DNA of 64,000 nucleotides. Origin: Streptomyces sp. Go-475. Its GTDB lineage: Bacteria; Actinomycetota; Actinomycetes; Streptomycetales; Streptomycetaceae. The position numbers and the translations under genes are program-made. This document shows, piece by piece, positions 3,319 to 38,056 of the stretch. The DNA lies in the NCBI RefSeq assembly GCF_003330845.1, contig NZ_CP026121.1, positions 930,001-994,000 on the forward strand. The letters run 5' to 3'. Under the pieces are notes generated by a model. It was not told where the DNA came from. It saw only the letters and a program-made list of their open reading frames with translations, and searched no databases. How positions within the stretch are numbered: position 1 is the first letter of the stretch; each line of letters starts with the position of its first letter.

Positions 3319-3448
3319 AGGAGGTGTCCTTCCATGGGGGGGCAAGTCCCAACTTACCGACACCGCCTCCCACATGGCGCACCGAGGCCCCCGGCAGACC
3401 ACCCGCCACGCAACGCACCACGACCCCTCACCCCACCACCCCGCAACG

Positions 3449-3553
3449 CACCGCTCCCCCACGAACCGCCGCGCGCACAACGGCACCGCTCCCCCACGAA
3501 CCGCCGCGCGCACAACGGCACCGCTCCCCCACGAACCGCCGCGCGCACAACGG
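3449..3553. repeat. 35-bp tandem repeat, three contiguous copies
   Basis: Copies lie at 3449-3483, 3484-3518 and 3519-3553; each begins CACCGCTCCCCCACGAACCG. A fourth partial copy starts at 3554 and diverges after about ten bases. The copies are identical as far as I can compare them. The array sits in the gap (3319-3707) between the divergent chorismate mutase and GH115 genes, upstream of both promoters. There are no spacers, so it is not CRISPR. Confidence 0.85.
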
Positions 3554-3605
3554 CACCGCGCCCCACATCTGGACGCCCTCGCACCCCCTCCCCTAGGGTG
3601 CCTCG

Positions 3606-19773: not shown

Positions 19774-19927
19774 CGTTCGACGGTATGCCCGCGTTCCCGA
19801 CCTCACCACTCGATCAACGTCGGCCTGAAATTCCCGACATGGGAGGTGATAATCCGTTCTAGGAGGTGCAGAGGACCGGAGCATGCCGGAGCGGGTACGG
19901 GGGCCGCACAGCCGAGTGGGAGCGACA

Positions 19928-20533
19928 TTGATCCGCGTTCTTCTCGTCGAGAACACCCGCCTGGTGCGGGGAGCGTTCGCCGCTCTCCTGTCACGTGAGG
20001 ACGACATCGAGGTCGTCGCCGAAGCCGAGGGCAACGGTGAGGTTCTCGCCCGCGCCCTGTCGTGCCGCCCGGACGTGGTCGTGATCGACGTGGACTCCAG
20101 GGAGGGCGAGGAACTCGCCGCACGGGGCGAGCTGAGGGCCCGGCTCCCGGACTGCCGGATGCTGCTGCTGATGGCGTCGACGACACCCGAGCGGTTGCGC
20201 CGCGTGCTCGGTCTGCACGCCGCCGGCGTCATCTGCACCAACGCCCCGGCGGACCGTCTCGTCCACGGTGTCCGCAAGCTGGTCAGGGGGCAGCGGTTCA
20301 TCGACCCGGAGTTCGCGCTGGTCGCGCTGGACGCGGGAGAGAACCCGCTGACACCGCGCGAGGTGGAGGTGCTGCGGCTGGCCGCCGACGGCACGCCGAC
20401 GCGGGAGATCGCCGAGCGGCTGTCACTGTCCGTGGCGACGGTGCGTAATCACCTGACCGCCATCACGCGGAAGACGGGGGGACGCAACCGGATCGACGCG
20501 ATCCGGATCGCCCGGGAGTCGGGCTGGGTGTGA
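19928..20533 (+). CDS. ramR: RamR/AmfR atypical NarL-type response regulator
   Basis: The product is about 201 residues: a receiver domain plus a LuxR-type helix-turn-helix (LTPREVEVLRLAADG ... VATVRNHLTAITRKTG). It sits convergent to ramB in the SapB locus, where RamR/AmfR activates the ramCSAB promoter. The receiver keeps the phosphoacceptor (D54 in VVVIDVDS). However, one acidic pocket residue is Asn (VEN) and the conserved Lys is Thr (T104, GVICTNAP). This fits an orphan regulator not driven by a classical kinase. The TTG at 19928 has GTGGGAG six bases upstream and matches the normal receiver start; ATG 19883 would add 15 residues. Confidence 0.82.
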   Translation: MIRVLLVENTRLVRGAFAALLSREDDIEVVAEAEGNGEVLARALSCRPDVVVIDVDSREGEELAARGELRARLPDCRMLLLMASTTPERLRRVLGLHAAGVICTNAPADRLVHGVRKLVRGQRFIDPEFALVALDAGENPLTPREVEVLRLAADGTPTREIAERLSLSVATVRNHLTAITRKTGGRNRIDAIRIARESGWV

Positions 20534-23159
20534 GGGCTCGTACGGGCCCTCCGGGCTTCGTACGGGCCCTCCTGGCTTCGGGCGGGGCTTCCTGGGTGTT
20601 CGCGCGCGTCCCGCGACGCGCTCCGCGGTCGTCCGCAGGACCGCGGCCATCCCGGCCCGTGCCATCGCCCCGGCGGTCGGCCGCGCCGGCCGGGCACCGC
20701 CGCCCGGAGAAGCGCCGGCCGCGCCCCAGTGGCCGACCAGGTCGCGGTAGAGCGGGGACGCGGCCATCAGCTGCCCGTGGGTGCCGAGGGCGACCCGCGT
20801 GCCGTCCATGACCAGGACGCGGTCGGCCCGCAGCGCGGAGCTGATGCGGTGGGCGACGACGATCAGGGTGCCCGGGGCGCGGGCGAAGGCGTCCTCGGCG
20901 ACGGCCTCGGCGAGCGGGTCGAGGTGGCAGGTCGCCTCGTCCAGCAGCGTCAGCCGGGGCGCCGGGAGCAGGGCGCGGGCCAGGGCGACGAGCTGCCGCT
21001 CACCGGCCGAGAGGCGCCTGGGGTCCAGGGGCGCGTCATAGCCGCCGAGGCGCTCGACGAGGGGCGCGGCGCCCACGGCGCGCACCGCCGACTCCACGTC
21101 CGCCCGGGGCGCCCCGGGAGCCAGGTAGGTGAGGTTCTCCGCCAGTGTGCCGGCGAAGACGTACGCCTCCTGGGGGATCAGGACGCGGTGCCGGGCCAGA
21201 CCCTCGCCGCGGCCGACCAGAGCACGGACGGGCAGGTCATCGAGGTATACCTGCCCGGCCCGCGGTTCGAGCACCCCGGCGATCAGGGCCGCCAGGGTGG
21301 ACTTCCCCGCGCCGCTCGGGCCGACCACGGCGAGGTGCTCACCGGGCCGCAGGAGAAGGTTCAGGTCGCGGATCACCGGGTCCGCGGACTGTGCGTAGGC
21401 GAAGGTGAGACCGCGGACGTCCACACGACAGCCGCCGCCCCGGACCACCGGCCGGTCGCGGCCGCCGCCGGCTTCCCCCGGACTGGACGCGGCAGCGCCG
21501 TGCGCGGGCTCGGACCGGGAGGCCGTCGCGCCGTGCGCGGGCCCGGGGCTGGACGCGGCAGCGCCCTGCGCGGGCTCGGACCGGGACGCCGTCACGCCGC
21601 GCGCGGGCCCGGGCTCGGTCCGGGACGCCGTCGCGCCCTCCGCGGGCTCGGACCGGGACGCCGTCGCGCCGTGCGCGGGCCCGAGGCTGGACGCGGAAGC
21701 GCCCTGCGCGGGCTCGGACCGGGACGCCGTCACGCGCGCGCGGGCCCGGGCTCGGTCCGGGACTCCGTGGCGCCCTCCGCGGGCTCGGGCCGGGACGCCG
21801 TCGCGCCGCGCGCGGGCCCGGGGCTGGACGCGGAAGCGCCCTGCGCGGGCTCGGACCGGGACGCCGTCACGCCGCGCGCGGGCCAGGCTCGGTCCGGGAC
21901 TCCGTGGCGCCCTCCGCGGGCTCGGGCCGGGACGCCGTCGCGCCGCGCGCGGGCCCGGGGCTGGACGCGGCAGCGCCCTGCGCGGGCTCGGACCGGGACG
22001 CCGTCACGCCGCGCGCGGGCCCGGGCTCGGTCCGGGACTCCGTGGCGCCCTCCGCGGGCTCGGGCCGGGACGCCGTCGCGCCGCGCGCGGGCCCGGGGCT
22101 GGACGCGGAAGCGCCCTGCGCGGGCTCGGACCGGGACGCCGTCACGCCGCGCGCGGGCCCGGGCTCGGTCCGGGACTCCGTGGCGCCCTCCGCGGGCTCG
22201 GGCCGGGACTCGTCCGCGACGTCGGCCATCCGGCCGACGGTGACCAGCAGCCACAGCCCGCTGCTGCCCAAACCCTGCACGAAGCCCTGCAGGGCCGGCT
22301 GGAGGGCCTGCGACACATAGGTCACCGCGCCGAGGATCGCCCCGGCCGTCACGCCGTTGCGCACCAGCCAGGGCGCCGCGAGCAGGATCAGCAGCAGGGG
22401 CACCCAGCCGCTGACGCCCAGCGCCGCGGTCCGTACCGCGGTGAGGCGGGCCAGCGAGAGGGTGGCGCGTGCGGCGTCGTCGACGTGCGCGCCCGCCGCC
22501 GCCCCGATCCGGTCCTCGGCGCCGCAGGCCACCACGTCCCGCAGCCCGCCGGTCAGGCCGCCCGTGGTCTCGGCGATGCGCTCGTCCGCCAGGACGACCT
22601 CCCGCTGCCGCGCGGCCATCGCCCGCAGCGCCGCGGCGAACAGGGCGAGCCCGAGCAGCAGCGGAGGCAGGACGAGGGCGACCAGCACGACGTCCAGGCC
22701 GGCCAGGCCCACCAGCACGCCGACGGTGGTGACCAGGAAGCCCTGGATGAACAGCACGATCGCGCCGTAGGCGTCCCGGGCCCGTTCCACGTGCTCGGTG
22801 AGCCGCGCCACCCCGGCGGTGTCGGCCGGCTCGCCCAGCCGGGCGGACCGGTGCAGGGTGCCCTCGGTCACCAGCGTGGTCAGCTCGTCGCGGAAGGGTT
22901 CGATGAGCGCGGCGAGGCCGAGCACGGCGTGCCGGGTCGCCCAGGCGCCGACCACGTAGGCGACGCCCAGCGCGCCCAGCCAGAGGAAGCCGGTGGCCGG
23001 CCGGTCGGCGAGGAAGCCGCGGTCGACGGCGCGGGCGACGATCCACCCGGAGAGGAAGGCGGGCACGGCCTGCACCAACGACCAGGCCACGAGCCGCCCG
23101 TACTCCCGGCGCCGGCGGCTCAGCGAGGAGCGCAGGATGCGCACGGACCGCCGGCTCAC
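20423..23159 (-). pseudogene. ramB: RamB-like ABC exporter, frame-shifted inside a tandem repeat
   Basis: The N-terminal membrane domain (SRRSVRILRSSL ... GRMADVADES) reads from GTG 23159. The nucleotide-binding domain (Walker A GPSGAGKST, signature LSAGERQ, Walker B LTLLDEATCHLD) is in another frame. Between them lies a 138-bp repeat array encoding Ser/Glu/Pro/Ala/Gly linker. Compared with sister repeats, one base is missing near 21884 and one near 21735. Restoring both joins the three frames into one protein of about 912 residues. As given, translation stops at 21867. The GTG overlaps the ramA stop. The extra C-terminal 110 residues overlap ramR antisense and may not be real. RamA/RamB export SapB. 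Confidence 0.75.
21495..22210. repeat. 138-bp tandem repeat array inside ramB
   Basis: The marker GCGCC(C/G)TGCGCGGGCTCGG recurs at 21495, 21561, 21699, 21836, 21973 and 22111. Spacings are 66, 138, 137, 137 and 138. The 138-bp unit (46 codons) is itself built of two related halves. Two units are one base short. On the minus strand the unit encodes blocks such as TASRSEPAQGASASSPGP. The array joins the RamB membrane and ATPase domains. Confidence 0.9.
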
Positions 23160-24886
23160 CGGGCACCCCCGGCGCCCGTACGGACCGGCGTCCTGGTCAC
23201 GGACGGCGGCTGGAACGTGGCCCGGTACTCGGGGTCCGCCCACAGGTCGCGGTGCGTCCCCCGCCCCCGGACCCCGCCGTCGGCGAGCCAGATCACGAGT
23301 TCCGCCCGGTCCGCGGTGGAGGTCCGGTGGGTCACGATGAGACGTGTGCGGTCGGCGAGCGCACCGGTGAGCACCTGGCTGATGTGGTGCTCGGTCACGG
23401 TGTCGAGGCTGGCGGCGACGTCGTCGAGGATGAGCACCCGCCCGGCCTGGACGAAGGCCCGGGCCAGTCCGACCCGTTGCGCCTCCCCGCCGGAGACCGG
23501 GGTGTCGGCGACCCGGCTCGCGTAGCCGGCGGGCATGCGGCGGATGAACGCGTCGGCCCGGGCGGCCCGGGCCTGTGCCGCCAGTTCCCCGGCGGAAGGG
23601 GTGCGCGGCCCGAACCCGATGGCGTCGGCGAAGGTCTCGCCGAGCAGCACCGGGCGTTCGAAGCCGTACGCCACGGCCCGCCTGAGCTCCTCGCGGGCGA
23701 GTCGGCGCAGCGGCACGCCGTCGAGCAGGACCTCGCCCTCGTCCGGGTCGACGAGGCGTCCGGCCAGCGCGGCCAGCAGCGACTTGCCGGACCCGGAGCG
23801 GCCGACGACGGCGACGAGGGCGCCGCCGGGGATCGTCAGGTCGAGGTCGTTCAGGACGGGGCCGTCCGCGCCGTGGACGGTCACTCCCCGGAAGCGGATC
23901 CGTCCTGGTCCTTCGGGGAGTCGCTCGTGCCCGTACGCCACGGGCGGTTCGGCGATCACCTCGGCGACCCGGGCGGCCGCCGCGCGGGCCTGGGCCAGTT
24001 CGTTCAGCGACGACATGACGCCGCCGATGCCGGCCGCCATGACGACGTACTCGCTCGCCGCGAGCACCTCCCCCGGCGTGATGCGGCCCTGGGTGAGCCC
24101 CACGCCGGCCACCGCCAGGACGGCGACCACCAGCAGCGGGACGACCAGGTCTCCGCGTGCCGAGATCCGCGCGAGCGCGTTCCACATGCCCAGTCCGTGC
24201 CGGTGCAGCTCGGGCAGGGGCTCGAGGACCCGTCGGGTCTCGCGGTCGAGGGTCCCCGCCGCGGTGATCGTGCGGATGCCGCCCAGGGCGTCGACCAGCC
24301 GTGCGGCGATGGTGCCCTGCACGCGGAAGTAGCCCTCGCCGGCGTCGGAGATGTCGCGCAGGAAGGCCCGTACGAGGAGGACCAGGATCGGCATGCCCGC
24401 GAGGAAGGTGAGGCACAGCCAGTAGTCGATGAGCGCCAGGGCGGCGATCGCGCCGAGCGGGGGGATGACGCCCATGACGATCCACACCAGGCCGGACGCG
24501 GCGTCCCCGGTCCGGGCGGAGTTGCCGACCAGCCGGCTCACCAGGTCGCCCGGGGGGAACCTGCGGGTGGCCCGGGTGCCGAGGGCCAGCACGTGCCGCA
24601 GCAGTGTGTGCCGCAGCCAGGCCGTCGACCGGGCCTCGGCCGCCTGCCCGACGAGATCGTCCACGGCGTCGACGGCCACCATGACGAAGACCAGCACTCC
24701 GGTCAGGGCGAGCCACCGCGCCGCGTCGCCGTGGCCGAGGACGGCGTCGAGGGTGCGGCCCATGACGGCCGGCAGCGCGAGGGTGGCTCCGGTGAGCAGC
24801 AGGGAGGTGACGACCGTGACGCCCACCCAGACGCCGCCTCGCCGGGCTGACGCCAGCAGCAGGCGGTCCGGTGCGCGCAGGCTCAT
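23156..24886 (-). CDS. ramA: RamA ABC exporter (membrane plus ATPase domains)
   Basis: The product is 576 residues: a six-helix exporter domain then a nucleotide-binding domain with Walker A GRSGSGKS, signature VSGGEAQR and Walker B VLILDD. The catalytic Glu after Walker B is Asp here (ILDDVAASLD). With RamB it should form the heterodimer that exports the SapB lanthipeptide. ATG 24886 follows GGGAGGAA. It lies 79 bases after ramS, and its TGA overlaps the ramB GTG, indicating one operon with coupled translation. Confidence 0.85.
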   Translation of the reverse strand: MSLRAPDRLLLASARRGGVWVGVTVVTSLLLTGATLALPAVMGRTLDAVLGHGDAARWLALTGVLVFVMVAVDAVDDLVGQAAEARSTAWLRHTLLRHVLALGTRATRRFPPGDLVSRLVGNSARTGDAASGLVWIVMGVIPPLGAIAALALIDYWLCLTFLAGMPILVLLVRAFLRDISDAGEGYFRVQGTIAARLVDALGGIRTITAAGTLDRETRRVLEPLPELHRHGLGMWNALARISARGDLVVPLLVVAVLAVAGVGLTQGRITPGEVLAASEYVVMAAGIGGVMSSLNELAQARAAAARVAEVIAEPPVAYGHERLPEGPGRIRFRGVTVHGADGPVLNDLDLTIPGGALVAVVGRSGSGKSLLAALAGRLVDPDEGEVLLDGVPLRRLAREELRRAVAYGFERPVLLGETFADAIGFGPRTPSAGELAAQARAARADAFIRRMPAGYASRVADTPVSGGEAQRVGLARAFVQAGRVLILDDVAASLDTVTEHHISQVLTGALADRTRLIVTHRTSTADRAELVIWLADGGVRGRGTHRDLWADPEYRATFQPPSVTRTPVRTGAGGAR

Positions 24887-24965: not shown

Positions 24966-25112
24966 TCACTTGCCGCTGCACAGCAGCGCACTGAGGTTGC
25001 TGGCGCCGCCCGCACAGAGCGTGATGCTGAGCCGGCTGTGCCTGCCCTTGGGGCCCTTGCCGCCGCCGTAGGCGACAGTCGGGTCCATGGCCTGCAGCTC
25101 GAGGAGTGTCAT
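24966..25112 (-). CDS. ramS: SapB-type lanthipeptide precursor RamS/AmfS (48 residues)
   Basis: A 48-residue peptide. The leader contains LLELQ (residues 3-7), the motif recognised by class III lanthipeptide synthetases. A Gly/Lys-rich hinge follows. The core has two Ser-x2-Ser-x3-Cys units, SRLSITLC (26-33) and SNLSALLC (38-45), the exact spacing used for the two rings of SapB. The ATG lies in an ATGA overlap with the ramC stop and has a very strong GGAGGAGGTGA site. It is encoded between the synthetase and exporter genes, as in known ram/amf operons. Confidence 0.93.
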   Translation of the reverse strand: MTLLELQAMDPTVAYGGGKGPKGRHSRLSITLCAGGASNLSALLCSGK

Positions 25113-27742
25113 GAGGGTTCACCTCCTCCCTGACCTCGTGGGGACGGGGGAACTGGGCCGTGCGGCGCGTTCCACCTGTCGCTGGGAGCGAGGAACGGCA
25201 GCCGTACGGGGCTGGTGTGGAGCGCGGAGCCGACGGCGAGCAGGACTCCCGCGCTGCCGGTGGCCAGGTCGGTGGAGAGCCGCATGAGCTGCTCGCCCGG
25301 GAAGGCCAGGTGGTCCCGGTAGGTGAGCGCGTGGCGGGACAGGCGGCGGATGTGCTCGGCGACCACGGGGTCGCGCCGCGCGGCGGTGCCCGGGGGATGC
25401 GGCCGGCTGAGGCAGAGGATCATCCCCGCCAGGCCCTGGAATAGCCCGGACTGGATGTAGAACCGTCCCTGAGCCGCCGTGCGGATCGCGGCGGACGCCG
25501 CGCGGAAGGTGTCGTCCTGGCGGTGGGCCAGGTAGTCGTCGAGCACGAGGCCGATCCCGGCGCTGCCGGTGCCCAGGTACGGCAGGCTCCGCCAGCCCTC
25601 GTCGACCTCCATGGACCCTCCCTCACGGAGGACGCAGCGGCGCAGGTCCTGCCGGAGGGCCGTGCCGGCCAGGTCGAGGAACTCCGGGTCGCCGGTGTGC
25701 TCGTACAGCCGCAGGAACATCAGGGCCGGCCCGGTCGAGCCGTGCATCAGCCCGGCCTTCGGGGTCTCGCCGTCGTCCGGGCTCTCGTCGGCCGGTCCGA
25801 GCCGTTCGGCGACGAGCCCCGCCACCACGAAGGCCGCGTCGCGGAACGCGGGGTCGCCGGTGGCCGCGGCGAAGTGCTGGAGGTCCAGGCCGATCCCGGC
25901 CAGGCCTCCATGCAGGTCGGGTCCCAGTTGCTGCCACTGTTCGCCGAGGCACATCTCGACAACCTTCGTCGCCTCCTCGCGGTGGCCGAGGTGGTCGAGG
26001 GTGTACGCGACGCCGTGCAGGCCGTCGTAGAGACCGAGGCGCGCCCCCGGCTCGGGGTGCAGGGCGTGGCGTACGAGCCACTCCTCGTGGTCCGGGTGGC
26101 GGCCGGCGCCGACCGTGTCCAGCGCGTACAGCACTCCCGCCGCGCCGTGTGCGAGGCCCAGGCCCCCGCCCGGGACGGTGAACTGCTCGACGTCGCCCGG
26201 GAAGAGCCGGTCGTCGCGGTCCGGTGTGGCGGCGGCCAGGATGGCGGCGGTCATGGACGCGCGGGCGCGCGGCCAGCTCTGATGGTCCGGTTCCAGCCGC
26301 TGCGGTGTGCCGGAGCCCGCCCGCGCGCCGGTGCCGTCGCCGGCGATCACCCGTACCGCGTCGTCGAAGAACCCCTGGGGGACGGGGAAGATCCGGGTGG
26401 CCTCCTCGGCGAACTGCCGTGCCTTCCCCGCGTCGAGCGGGAACAGGTTGGTGAGCGGCAGGAAGAGGAAGAGCCGCAGGCAGGCCAGTGCGTAGCGGTC
26501 GATGTCGGTGCCGGTCAGGCCGCGCGGGACGGTGAACCCGGGGGCCGCGAGGCGCTGGCTTCCCTGGTCGGTCACGTCCGCGACGCCCTCGAAGTCGATG
26601 AGTACGAGACGGCCGTCGGGGCGGACCAGCATGTTGTCGGCGTGGAGGTCGCCCACGATCAGGCCCCTGGCGTGTACGGCGTCGACGGCGCGCTCGGCCT
26701 GGTCCAGCATGTCGAGGGCCCAGGCGGTGTAGCCCTCGGTGTCCATGGCGGTGGTCTCCGGCAGGACGAGGGGGCAGCGTTCCACGAAGAGGGTGTTGAG
26801 CGTCGGCCCCTCGACGAACTCCTCGACCAGGAAGTGGTGCTCCCCGAGGACGAAGTGGTCGAGCAGGGCCGGCACGCAGTCGAGCCCGCGCAGCCGTTCG
26901 AGGGCGTCCCGCTCGCGGTGCTGCCGGGTGACGGCGTCGGCGCCGTCCAGGGTGAGCCCGGCGTACGGGCGGGCCTCCTTGAGCACGACCCGCTGCCCGG
27001 TCCGCAGGTCGTGACCGGTGTAGAGGCCGCCGCCGTTGGAGAAGTGCAGGGCGCTCTCGATGCGGTAGGGCAGGTCGGCGACGGTCGTGCTGTTCCGTTC
27101 GGCCAGGTGGGGTTCGAGGAAGGCGGGCAGGGTCACCCAGTCCGGCACCCGGAACACCGGTCCGCGCACGTCGGGCACGAGCCGGCCGGACGGGTCCTCG
27201 ATCGCCGGTACCAGCTCGCCGTCGGGCGACAGGCAGGTCCGCACGGCGAACCCTCCGTACCTGACGTACAGCGGGCCGTCCCCCCAGCGCAGGTCGCTGA
27301 GGATGTACGGGCCCGGACGGCCCGCCACGACGGGGCCCAGCTCGTGGAGGACCGTTTCGAGCTGGGCCTCGTCCGCCGGGTAGATCGTCACGAACTTGCC
27401 GCTGGATCCGCGCGGGGCGTACTTGGCGTTGGCGAGCAGGAGGTGGTCCTCGCTCGGCAGGAACTTGAAGGCGATACGAGCGGAGACGCAGTAGTCCCAT
27501 ACGGCGCTCAGGACCTCCCGGGCCGTGCCGAGCGAGGCCGACACGTGGATCTTCCAGCCCTGCGGCGGAAGCACCAGGCCGTCGGGGGTGAGCACCACCC
27601 AGCTGTCCAGATCGGACCGCACCCACCCGTCCGGGGCCGGACATCGGGCCAGTTCGAAGCTGTCGCTCTGGCCTTTGGCGCGGGCGGGCGTGTCGTAGAA
27701 GTCCGGGTCCATGAGGCAGAACGCCTCGTAGCGCATGTCCAC
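25109..27742 (-). CDS. ramC: Class III lanthipeptide synthetase RamC/AmfT
   Basis: The product is 877 residues. The N-terminal lyase-like domain opens MDMRYEAFCLMDPDFYD, close to known RamC proteins. A central Ser/Thr kinase-like domain has catalytic LIVGDLHADNML and metal-binding VLIDFEG. The C-terminal LanC-like cyclase (HGAAGVLYALD, LHGGLAGIGLD, GSAGIGLVLDDYL) lacks the zinc ligands, as in class III enzymes. It phosphorylates and eliminates core serines of RamS and forms the rings. GTG 27742 is preceded by GGGAGA. The upstream gap to 27984 should hold the RamR-controlled promoter; I see only a 7-bp hairpin (27796-27817) and no certain RamR sites. Confidence 0.92.
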   Translation of the reverse strand: MDMRYEAFCLMDPDFYDTPARAKGQSDSFELARCPAPDGWVRSDLDSWVVLTPDGLVLPPQGWKIHVSASLGTAREVLSAVWDYCVSARIAFKFLPSEDHLLLANAKYAPRGSSGKFVTIYPADEAQLETVLHELGPVVAGRPGPYILSDLRWGDGPLYVRYGGFAVRTCLSPDGELVPAIEDPSGRLVPDVRGPVFRVPDWVTLPAFLEPHLAERNSTTVADLPYRIESALHFSNGGGLYTGHDLRTGQRVVLKEARPYAGLTLDGADAVTRQHRERDALERLRGLDCVPALLDHFVLGEHHFLVEEFVEGPTLNTLFVERCPLVLPETTAMDTEGYTAWALDMLDQAERAVDAVHARGLIVGDLHADNMLVRPDGRLVLIDFEGVADVTDQGSQRLAAPGFTVPRGLTGTDIDRYALACLRLFLFLPLTNLFPLDAGKARQFAEEATRIFPVPQGFFDDAVRVIAGDGTGARAGSGTPQRLEPDHQSWPRARASMTAAILAAATPDRDDRLFPGDVEQFTVPGGGLGLAHGAAGVLYALDTVGAGRHPDHEEWLVRHALHPEPGARLGLYDGLHGVAYTLDHLGHREEATKVVEMCLGEQWQQLGPDLHGGLAGIGLDLQHFAAATGDPAFRDAAFVVAGLVAERLGPADESPDDGETPKAGLMHGSTGPALMFLRLYEHTGDPEFLDLAGTALRQDLRRCVLREGGSMEVDEGWRSLPYLGTGSAGIGLVLDDYLAHRQDDTFRAASAAIRTAAQGRFYIQSGLFQGLAGMILCLSRPHPPGTAARRDPVVAEHIRRLSRHALTYRDHLAFPGEQLMRLSTDLATGSAGVLLAVGSALHTSPVRLPFLAPSDRWNAPHGPVPPSPRGQGGGEPS

Positions 27743-36425: not shown

Positions 36426-38056
36426 ACCCAGGCCTCCGACGGGGGTGAGGGCGTCACCGGGTTGGGCGGTGCCCGTGTCGGCCCCGGCGCCGATGGTCCG
36501 CTTCGACCGGGCGGGGCGCCCGCCGCCGTCGGCGGCGACGGCCTCGTCCGGCTCGGCGGTTCCGTCCCCGTCGGGGGCGACGGTCCGGTCCGGCTCGGGG
36601 ATGCGCCCGCCCGGTCCGTCCGGGATGACGGCCTCACCCGGGTCGGCCGTTCCGTCCCCGTCGGGGCGACGGTCCGGTCCGGCTCGGGGATGCGCCCGCC
36701 CGGTCCGTCCGGGATGACGGCCTCACCCGGGTCGGCCGTTCCGTCCCCGTCGGGGGCGACGGTCCGGTCCGGCTCGGGGATGCGCCCGCCCGGTCCGTCC
36801 GGGATGACGGCCTCACCCGGGTCGGCCGTTCCGTCCCCGTCGGGGGCGACGGTCCGGTCCGGCTCGGGGATGCCCCCACCCGGGCCGACTGTCGCGGACT
36901 CCCCAGACCCGGCGGCGCCCCGGCCCCTGTCGGCCCCGGAGCCGTCGCCCGGCTCGGCTGGTCCCCGCTCCCCGACGGCCGTGACCACCGGACCGGGTTC
37001 GGTGGCCAGGTGTCCGGGCGGCAGGGTGAGCGACGGGCGGGCGGGCAGTGGGGTGGTCGCGAGGGCGGCCAGGTCCGGCACGGTGTCCAGCTGATGGGGC
37101 AGGACGAGAGGCGCTCCCGCCGGGGAGCCGGGCAGCACGGCCTCCACGGCGAAGCCCCGCACCCCGGAGGCACTCGTCATCGGACGGCTCACGAGCGTCA
37201 CCAGGCGGCCGTCGGGCAGGGCCACGTCGACGGCGGCCCGCTGCGCGCGGGAGATCAGCTCGGCGGCCTTCTCCAACAGGATCTCCCGGTCACGCGGGGG
37301 GAGCGCGTCCACGGGCGCGTCCCTCGCGACGCCCCGGCGCAGCCCGGCGGCTCCCGCCCCGCTGGCCGCGTACGCCCGCAGCAGGGCACGCTCGTGCGCG
37401 GAACTCTGCCCCAGCAGCCGCCGCTCGATGACCTCGGCCGCCCTGCGGATGGTGACGCCCAGCCCGGGCTGCTCGAAGCCGCGCGGGTAGCCGAAGCACA
37501 GGACGCCCTCGATGCGCCCGCTGAGCGGGTCACGGACGGGCAGCGCGACACAGGCGTTCTGCTGGGAGCGCTCCGCGAAGTGTTCGGCGCCGTAGACGCG
37601 GATGAGCTGCCGCTCGGCGAGGGCCAGGCCGATGCCGTTGGTGCCGGCGACCTGCTCCGAGAAGACGAAACCGGGGGCGACCTGGATCGCCGGCAGGCGC
37701 CTGGCCATCGACGGGTCCCCGAAGCGGCGCAGCAGGACCGTTCCGTTCGCGTCGGCGACCGAGATGTTGACCTGGCTGCCGGCGAACGTGGCCTGCAGCC
37801 GGTCCAGCACGGGCACGGCCGCGCGGACGATGCGGCCGCCCGGGTCGAAGTCGTCCCGGTAGGGCAGGTCGGACTGGTCCGGCGACAGGCCCAGGGACCG
37901 GCAGCGCCGCCACGAGTCCAGGATGGATCCCCGCACGCCCTCCTCGACCGGCTCGCCCTGGAGGAACCGCTCGCGAAGGCGGGCGGGCCCCGTGCCCTCA
38001 GTCGCACGACCCGCCGGCTGGGGTTCCTCGCCGGACCGAACCACGCTCCGCCTCAC
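36377..38056 (-). CDS. GAF-domain sensor (N-terminal part of a split GAF-SpoIIE protein)
   Basis: The frame opens with an AcoR-like helical segment (LRERFLQGEPVEEGVRGSI..) and a GAF domain (about residues 85-230: VFSEQVAGTNGIGLALAE, NACVALPVRDPLSG). A second small domain (about 270-330) is followed by a Pro/Asp/Gly-rich repeat linker. One base is missing near 36664 relative to sister repeats. After it the frame encodes arginine/serine/proline-rich nonsense to 36377. Restoring it joins the phosphatase frame directly. Start is GTG 38056, without a clear ribosome site. The domain order suggests a stress sensor controlling an anti-sigma pathway. Confidence 0.7.
   Translation of the reverse strand: MRRSVVRSGEEPQPAGRATEGTGPARLRERFLQGEPVEEGVRGSILDSWRRCRSLGLSPDQSDLPYRDDFDPGGRIVRAAVPVLDRLQATFAGSQVNISVADANGTVLLRRFGDPSMARRLPAIQVAPGFVFSEQVAGTNGIGLALAERQLIRVYGAEHFAERSQQNACVALPVRDPLSGRIEGVLCFGYPRGFEQPGLGVTIRRAAEVIERRLLGQSSAHERALLRAYAASGAGAAGLRRGVARDAPVDALPPRDREILLEKAAELISRAQRAAVDVALPDGRLVTLVSRPMTSASGVRGFAVEAVLPGSPAGAPLVLPHQLDTVPDLAALATTPLPARPSLTLPPGHLATEPGPVVTAVGERGPAEPGDGSGADRGRGAAGSGESATVGPGGGIPEPDRTVAPDGDGTADPGEAVIPDGPGGRIPEPDRTVAPDGDGTADPGEAVIPDGPGGRIPEPDRTVAPTGTERPTRVRPSSRTDRAGASPSRTGPSPPTGTEPPSRTRPSPPTAAGAPPGRSGPSAPGPTRAPPNPVTPSPPSEAWVWGRSAPGRRSRPGGC
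36548..36880. repeat. 90-bp tandem repeat in the GAF-SpoIIE linker
   Basis: The marker GGGGATGC(G/C)CCC recurs with its A at 36601, 36690, 36780 and 36870, giving spacings of 89, 90 and 90. Each unit encodes 30 residues, such as GGRIPEPDRTVAPDGDGTAD. The short unit reads TCGGGGCGAC (about 36661-36670) where others read TCGGGGGCGAC, a one-G loss in a G-run. Confidence 0.88.

Follow-up and report, generated by a model that had tools for sequence, protein, structure and literature searches.

Two single-base losses in the repeat-grown linker of a RamB-type exporter half from Streptomyces sp. Go-475 are probably sequence errors

In the assembly of Streptomyces sp. Go-475, the gene for RamB is broken twice by single-base losses within a 138-bp tandem array. 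RamB is most likely an ordinary member of a heterodimeric ABC exporter pair that would export a putative SapB-like class III lanthipeptide. Comparison with related sequences suggests that both losses are probably residual consensus errors; the true gene would then be an uninterrupted 912-codon frame whose tether has grown through the array. The array is an extreme-length case of a common, disordered and freely growing RamB tether, so that the linker is ordinary in kind and extreme in length. The window analysed is the whole stretch of 64,000 nucleotides at positions 930,001 to 994,000 of contig NZ_CP026121.1, and coordinates refer to it unless given as genome positions.

The ramB gene and its cluster

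The genes and parts of genes considered here are the following.

19883..20533, plus strand: response-regulator-like, LuxR-type regulator in the RamR position (GerE, 57.3 bits; 97% identity to S. lomondensis)
20423..23159, minus strand: whole ramB gene, if read in one frame (from open frames, sequence and intact relatives)
20426..21430, minus strand: RamB ATPase half with variable tail (ABC_tran, 87.9 bits over 20522-21430; Walker A GPSGAGKS, signature LSAGERQ, Walker B LLDEAT, H-loop VAHR)
21471..22208, minus strand: 138-bp (46-codon) tandem array that forms most of the linker, five units and one partial unit (GC 0.86)
21659..21795, minus strand: fourth unit, 137 bp, one base missing near 21736
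21796..21932, minus strand: third unit, 137 bp, one base missing near 21888, with an adjacent substitution
22212..23159, minus strand: RamB membrane half, 316 residues (94% identity and dN/dS 0.20 to S. lomondensis; confident in the S. lomondensis protein model)
23156..24886, minus strand: ramA, partner half-exporter with a 19-residue linker (ABC_membrane and ABC_tran matches)
24966..25112, minus strand: precursor peptide gene (leader LLELQ, two SxxSxxxC motifs)
25109..27742, minus strand: class III LanKC synthetase of RamC type (NCBIfam lanthi_synth_III, 1118.7 bits against a cut-off of 575 bits; Pfam RamC_N)

The ramB gene starts with a GTG at 23159, overlapping the ramA stop, and ends with a stop at 20423-20425; the regulator on the plus strand is convergent with the lanthipeptide genes. 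The interval 21495..23159, to which the initial annotation had assigned the broken gene, takes in the membrane half and the array, and the gene extends further, with the ATPase half and the stop at 21430-20423. RamB adjoins the class III LanKC synthetase, the precursor and the partner half-exporter, as expected of a RamB/AmfB-type neighbourhood. Its membrane half alone matched no family in Pfam or NCBIfam and is 38-94% identical to other RamB relatives, which supports homology, while the ATPase half retains the complete set of catalytic motifs of a RamB/AmfB-type protein, with motif residues invariant or nearly so across 39 sequences. The earlier assignment of gene and cluster is thus borne out as a class III lanthipeptide cluster with LanKC, precursor, RamA, RamB and a LuxR-type regulator, which is SapB-like only by the precursor motif, a SapB cluster in the strict sense being one whose peptide restores aerial growth.

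The order of LanKC, precursor, two half-exporters and regulator, the two domains and the motifs are shared with the ramCSAB/ramR and AmfB-type clusters of Streptomyces, whose RamB proteins we take to be the closest relatives. The source RamB differs from these in its linker of about 260 residues, composed of 46-residue repeats, and in a frame that is broken twice in the assembly. A cluster of like make-up is compared with ramCSAB/ramR and amfTSAB/amfR in an excerpt of PMC13380574. The ramC gene upstream of the S. lomondensis ramB (NZ_BMWC01000004.1) shows a frame change after residue 342; the source gene is whole.

The array and the broken frame

TRF places the array at 21495-22209, with a period of 138, 5.2 copies and a 96% match, and a unit-by-unit cut of the minus strand agrees, yielding units of 138 (22208-22071), 138 (22070-21933), 137 (21932-21796), 137 (21795-21659) and 138 bp (21658-21521), followed by a partial unit (50 bases shown). 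Identity at a lag of 138 over the whole array is 0.659, a value lowered by the two frame-shifting losses, whereas 200 shuffles that moved base pairs in steps of two reached at most 0.469 at any lag from 20 to 299. The two one-base losses, which had been placed by eye near 21884 and 21735, coincide to within four bases with the short units found here, at 21888 and 21736; in the fourth unit the base is missing from a run of just two C. A three-frame reading of the minus strand puts the membrane half, the middle stretch and the ATPase half each in a frame of its own, as had been claimed, and no single open frame spans both halves in the assembly. By coordinate arithmetic, 23159 to 20423 plus two bases corresponds to 912 codons and a stop, in line with the corrected length of about 912 codons proposed at the outset.

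The array is also the most GC-rich 500 bp (0.864) in 863 kb sampled from the source genome. When two array units were searched against 392 genomes of the genus, full-length matches of high identity were confined to the source genome, and the other 313 genomes with matches gave short or diverged GC-rich ones.

Linker length in RamB and RamA

According to the initial annotation, the alternative to real losses was an expanded linker not expected of RamB homologues. We therefore compared linkers across loci from related genomes and 60 further loci, which together provided 121 loci with both halves and 112 distinct linkers. The 60 further loci, taken from matches in 199 of the 392 genomes, were a selection (15 among the closest, plus 45 in genomes with no more than four contigs) and are consequently no random sample. 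Outside the 121 stand L065, whose matches are partial and which has a frame change and a stop, as well as L001, L002, L033 and L072, in which the ATPase half is absent from the sequence examined.

All but two of the distinct RamB linkers (110/112) are in frame, the exceptions being the source ramB and L036, which is out of frame and additionally carries a stop within the membrane half. The further loci are in frame without exception (60/60, 45 of them in assemblies of at most four contigs). In-frame RamB linkers span 14-269 residues with a median of 31.5 (n=110); 47 reach at least 40 residues, 11 at least 100, and eight are repeat-rich, defined as having at least 40% of the linker length in repeated five-residue words. 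RamA linkers at the same loci (n=95 in frame) lie near 19 residues in 92 cases, with quartiles of 19 and 20. Three exceed 35 residues (162, 74 and 79), which means that RamA is not wholly exempt from linker growth. The spread of the two linkers differs among the 46 first-set loci that have both (Levene p 2e-7; related loci are not independent). RamA values of L010, L034 and L042 were omitted owing to mis-pairing by tblastn. A Gly/Thr-rich repeat near the start of the ATPase domain was seen in RamA of L010, L042 and L053.

Long and repeat-rich linkers thus occur in frame in relatives, so a long linker is not foreign to RamB homologues and the initial choice between a real loss and an unexpected linker breaks down on the linker side. 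The longest in-frame RamB linker, of 269 residues, belongs to a RamB-like gene of another Streptomyces genome (L220, genome G164) and contains a 207-bp array of 3.0 copies. That gene resembles the source ramB in its linker length and array and differs in being in frame, in a membrane half of 47% identity and in an unrelated repeat sequence. In-frame RamB arrays were also found in two other loci, L251 and L252. The RamB tether, and rarely that of RamA (3/95 above 35 residues), therefore appears free to grow by tandem duplication, and its range of 14-269 residues offers a natural test of the tether length that an ABC exporter tolerates. Searches of an open-licence library brought up no earlier description of this pattern of RamB linker growth.

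Structural comparison and proposed mechanism

The RamB of S. lomondensis (L039) is 94% identical to the source protein in both halves and shares peptide words with its linker; it differs in having a linker of 74 residues and an intact single frame of 699 residues. An AlphaFold model of this protein, built with a 39-sequence alignment, has 464 of 699 residues at pLDDT of at least 90 and falls below 50 across nearly all of residues 323-384, so that the linker models as disordered. The fold matches the heterodimeric ABC exporters TmrAB, TM287/288 and MsRv1273c/72c along almost the full chain (E about 1e-24 to 1e-22) at 18-25% identity, with TM-scores of only 0.3-0.5 because the model places the two RamB halves loosely. 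To our knowledge, these solved exporters have no long linker.

Between the source and S. lomondensis RamB, dN/dS is 0.20 in the membrane half; in the ATPase half it is 0.32 when the core is taken alone and 0.41 when the tail is included. The ATPase half shows 12 amino-acid-changing differences in 238 codons. These values indicate that both halves have been held by selection since the split from S. lomondensis, a measure that says little about a very recent break.

Based on these comparisons, we propose a hypothetical history in which (i) the tether between the last membrane helix and the ATPase domain would have grown by duplication of a 46-codon unit; (ii) the assembly consensus would have kept two uncorrected single-base omissions in a gene whose true form is an uninterrupted 912-codon frame, with some 260 residues in its tether; (iii) RamB would presumably be made, as one 912-residue exporter half with a flexible tether, and would form a heterodimer with RamA; (iv) the tether would only hold the ATPase domain near its membrane half, which leaves its sequence free and would allow in-frame duplications to persist. 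Coupling between the membrane and ATPase domains of such exporters runs via intracellular loops, and for this reason a long, loose tether would be tolerated. RamA has LILDDV at the place of LLDEAT in RamB; by the rule that links such a motif difference to the hydrolysing half-exporter, RamB, with its full catalytic set, would carry the hydrolysing site.

Origin of the frame breaks

The extreme GC content and self-similarity of the array make it most likely that two single-base omissions were kept in the consensus. Omission of C or G in runs, with resulting frame shifts, is described in an excerpt of PMC4487206 for a PacBio assembly of Streptomyces before correction with Illumina contigs. Excerpts of two further papers report that short-read polishing is unreliable in repeat regions (PMC8812927) and, from a large nanopore/Illumina set, that higher GC leaves more bases uncovered by short reads (PMC11260486).

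Losses of the same kind occur in other arrays. The second long array of the window (36537-36887, minus strand; 90 bp, 3.9 copies) precedes the GAF/SpoIIE/ATPase part of a regulator gene, and the loss of one G from a run of five breaks the frame within it, whereas both parts of the S. lomondensis counterpart are in one frame. To set these losses against the background, 275,020 bases of the source genome were aligned to S. lomondensis, about half of them (some 139 kb) being readable as coding sequence. Outside arrays, nine uncompensated indel groups with readable coding flanks were found in these 139 kb. The source frame is kept in four, three of which are breaks on the S. lomondensis side; another four have a frame change at a stop codon of the source genome, within or beside the group; and at most one (near 1,043,076) could be a break of the source genome. 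The window arrays contain three losses in 1,066 array bases, an enrichment with p 4e-7 if no group is charged to the source genome and p 9e-5 if all nine are. A count of frame breaks from the predicted proteins of the two genomes (nine pairs flagged for 199 genes in one direction and 12 for 188 in the other) was blurred by over-long predicted starts, missed ramB and was replaced by the count of nucleotide gaps.

A sample of 1,663,000 bases of the source genome yielded 19 arrays whose period is divisible by three, whose units are at least 85% alike and whose length is at least 140 bp; the frame was readable in ten and not readable in nine. Five of the ten readable coding arrays are shifted, namely those of ramB, the SpoIIE-like gene, an AfsR-like gene, a gene without family hits and a second RamB (with its loss outside the array), and five are not. 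The AfsR-like gene (L114:16892-17544, genome near 4.817 Mb) has a 39-bp array of 16.8 copies with BTAD before it and NB-ARC/TPR after it, the two sides lying in different frames. The unshifted arrays include some with a GC of 0.79-0.81, and the in-frame arrays of L220, L251 and L252 are cases in which an assembly has rendered such a repeat correctly; both observations, together with the short C run at the fourth-unit loss, count against sequence error. These frames were read from flanking open frames. A stricter test with 300-base flanks on all arrays left 58 of 72 'unsure', and its random-interval control gave 18% apparent shifts, which arose from gene boundaries. One further array of the window, at 3444-3564 (35 bp, 3.5 copies, 97% alike), has a period that is not a multiple of three.

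The question raised by the initial annotation, real loss or assembly error, accordingly leans towards error on sequence comparison, given the GC content of the array and the like losses in other arrays. Were the losses real and recent, ramB would be a pseudogene, its ATPase half would not be made in frame, and export would fail or depend on another exporter. We regard this as unlikely. The double change in the third unit and the loss in the fourth are both present in the sequence, L036 provides a case of RamB decay, the second RamB of the genome is out of frame with an in-frame counterpart in S. lomondensis, and dN/dS is higher in the ATPase half than in the membrane half; yet the ATPase half retains its catalytic motifs with few amino-acid-changing differences, the remaining cluster genes are open, and two single-base losses in one array together with like losses in others fit a shared technical cause better. 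True decay does occur in the source genome, as a gene at genome 816.8-817.4 kb (L187), presumably for a secreted glycoside hydrolase, is broken several times in the source and whole in S. lomondensis.

At or near arrays, the frame is lost in several source genes whose domains are regulatory or developmental, which could suggest a switch in vivo: bases would be lost from repeat-bearing linkers and later regained, turning exporters and regulators off and on. Such a switch is very improbable, since single bases and not whole units are lost, all but two of the 112 distinct RamB linkers are in frame, the two RamB genes are shifted by different amounts, and XXXYYYZ heptamers in 21700-21960 consist of G and C only. 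The different shifts of the two RamB genes likewise led us to reject a programmed frame shift. Nor does the array behave as a phase-variable contingency locus, in which a change of unit number alters the frame: with 138 = 3 x 46, gain or loss of a unit keeps it. We give equally little credence to the related conjecture that linker repeats of developmental genes are hot spots of frame loss acting as a crude switch, with both RamB genes, the SpoIIE-like phosphatase and the AfsR-like regulator off in the sequenced cells and on in others. The least probable reading is a split transporter, with a membrane half that stops within the array and a separate chain, begun inside the array, that supplies the ATPase half. 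An open frame with a GTG start at 21733 does carry the ATPase half, and a tether is dispensable in principle, but that start lies inside the repeat with no ribosome-binding site before it by eye, and in L036, the sole other out-of-frame locus of the 121, the membrane half is itself interrupted by a stop. For the third-unit loss we also considered a base-calling error linked to methylation; the m5C motifs given for S. coelicolor in an excerpt of PMC10148868 are GGCmCGG and GCCmCG. With residual consensus error as the preferred reading, a frame break that a finished Streptomyces genome shows inside a GC-rich coding array should be taken as gene loss only with support from reads.

A second RamB in the genome

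The second RamB (L121:8600-9330, genome near 8.321 Mb) is 43% identical to the first in the membrane half and carries a 45-bp array in a long linker. Close to its ATPase half, in unique sequence outside the array, one C in a run of three puts it out of frame; the S. lomondensis counterpart has a short linker and is in frame. A shift in unique sequence is not accounted for by errors confined to repeats, and it could reflect either a further error or genuine loss. With both RamB genes truly broken, the strain would make neither pump. We first suspected a 5-base duplication in this gene, but the comparison with S. lomondensis showed a run of three C versus two instead.
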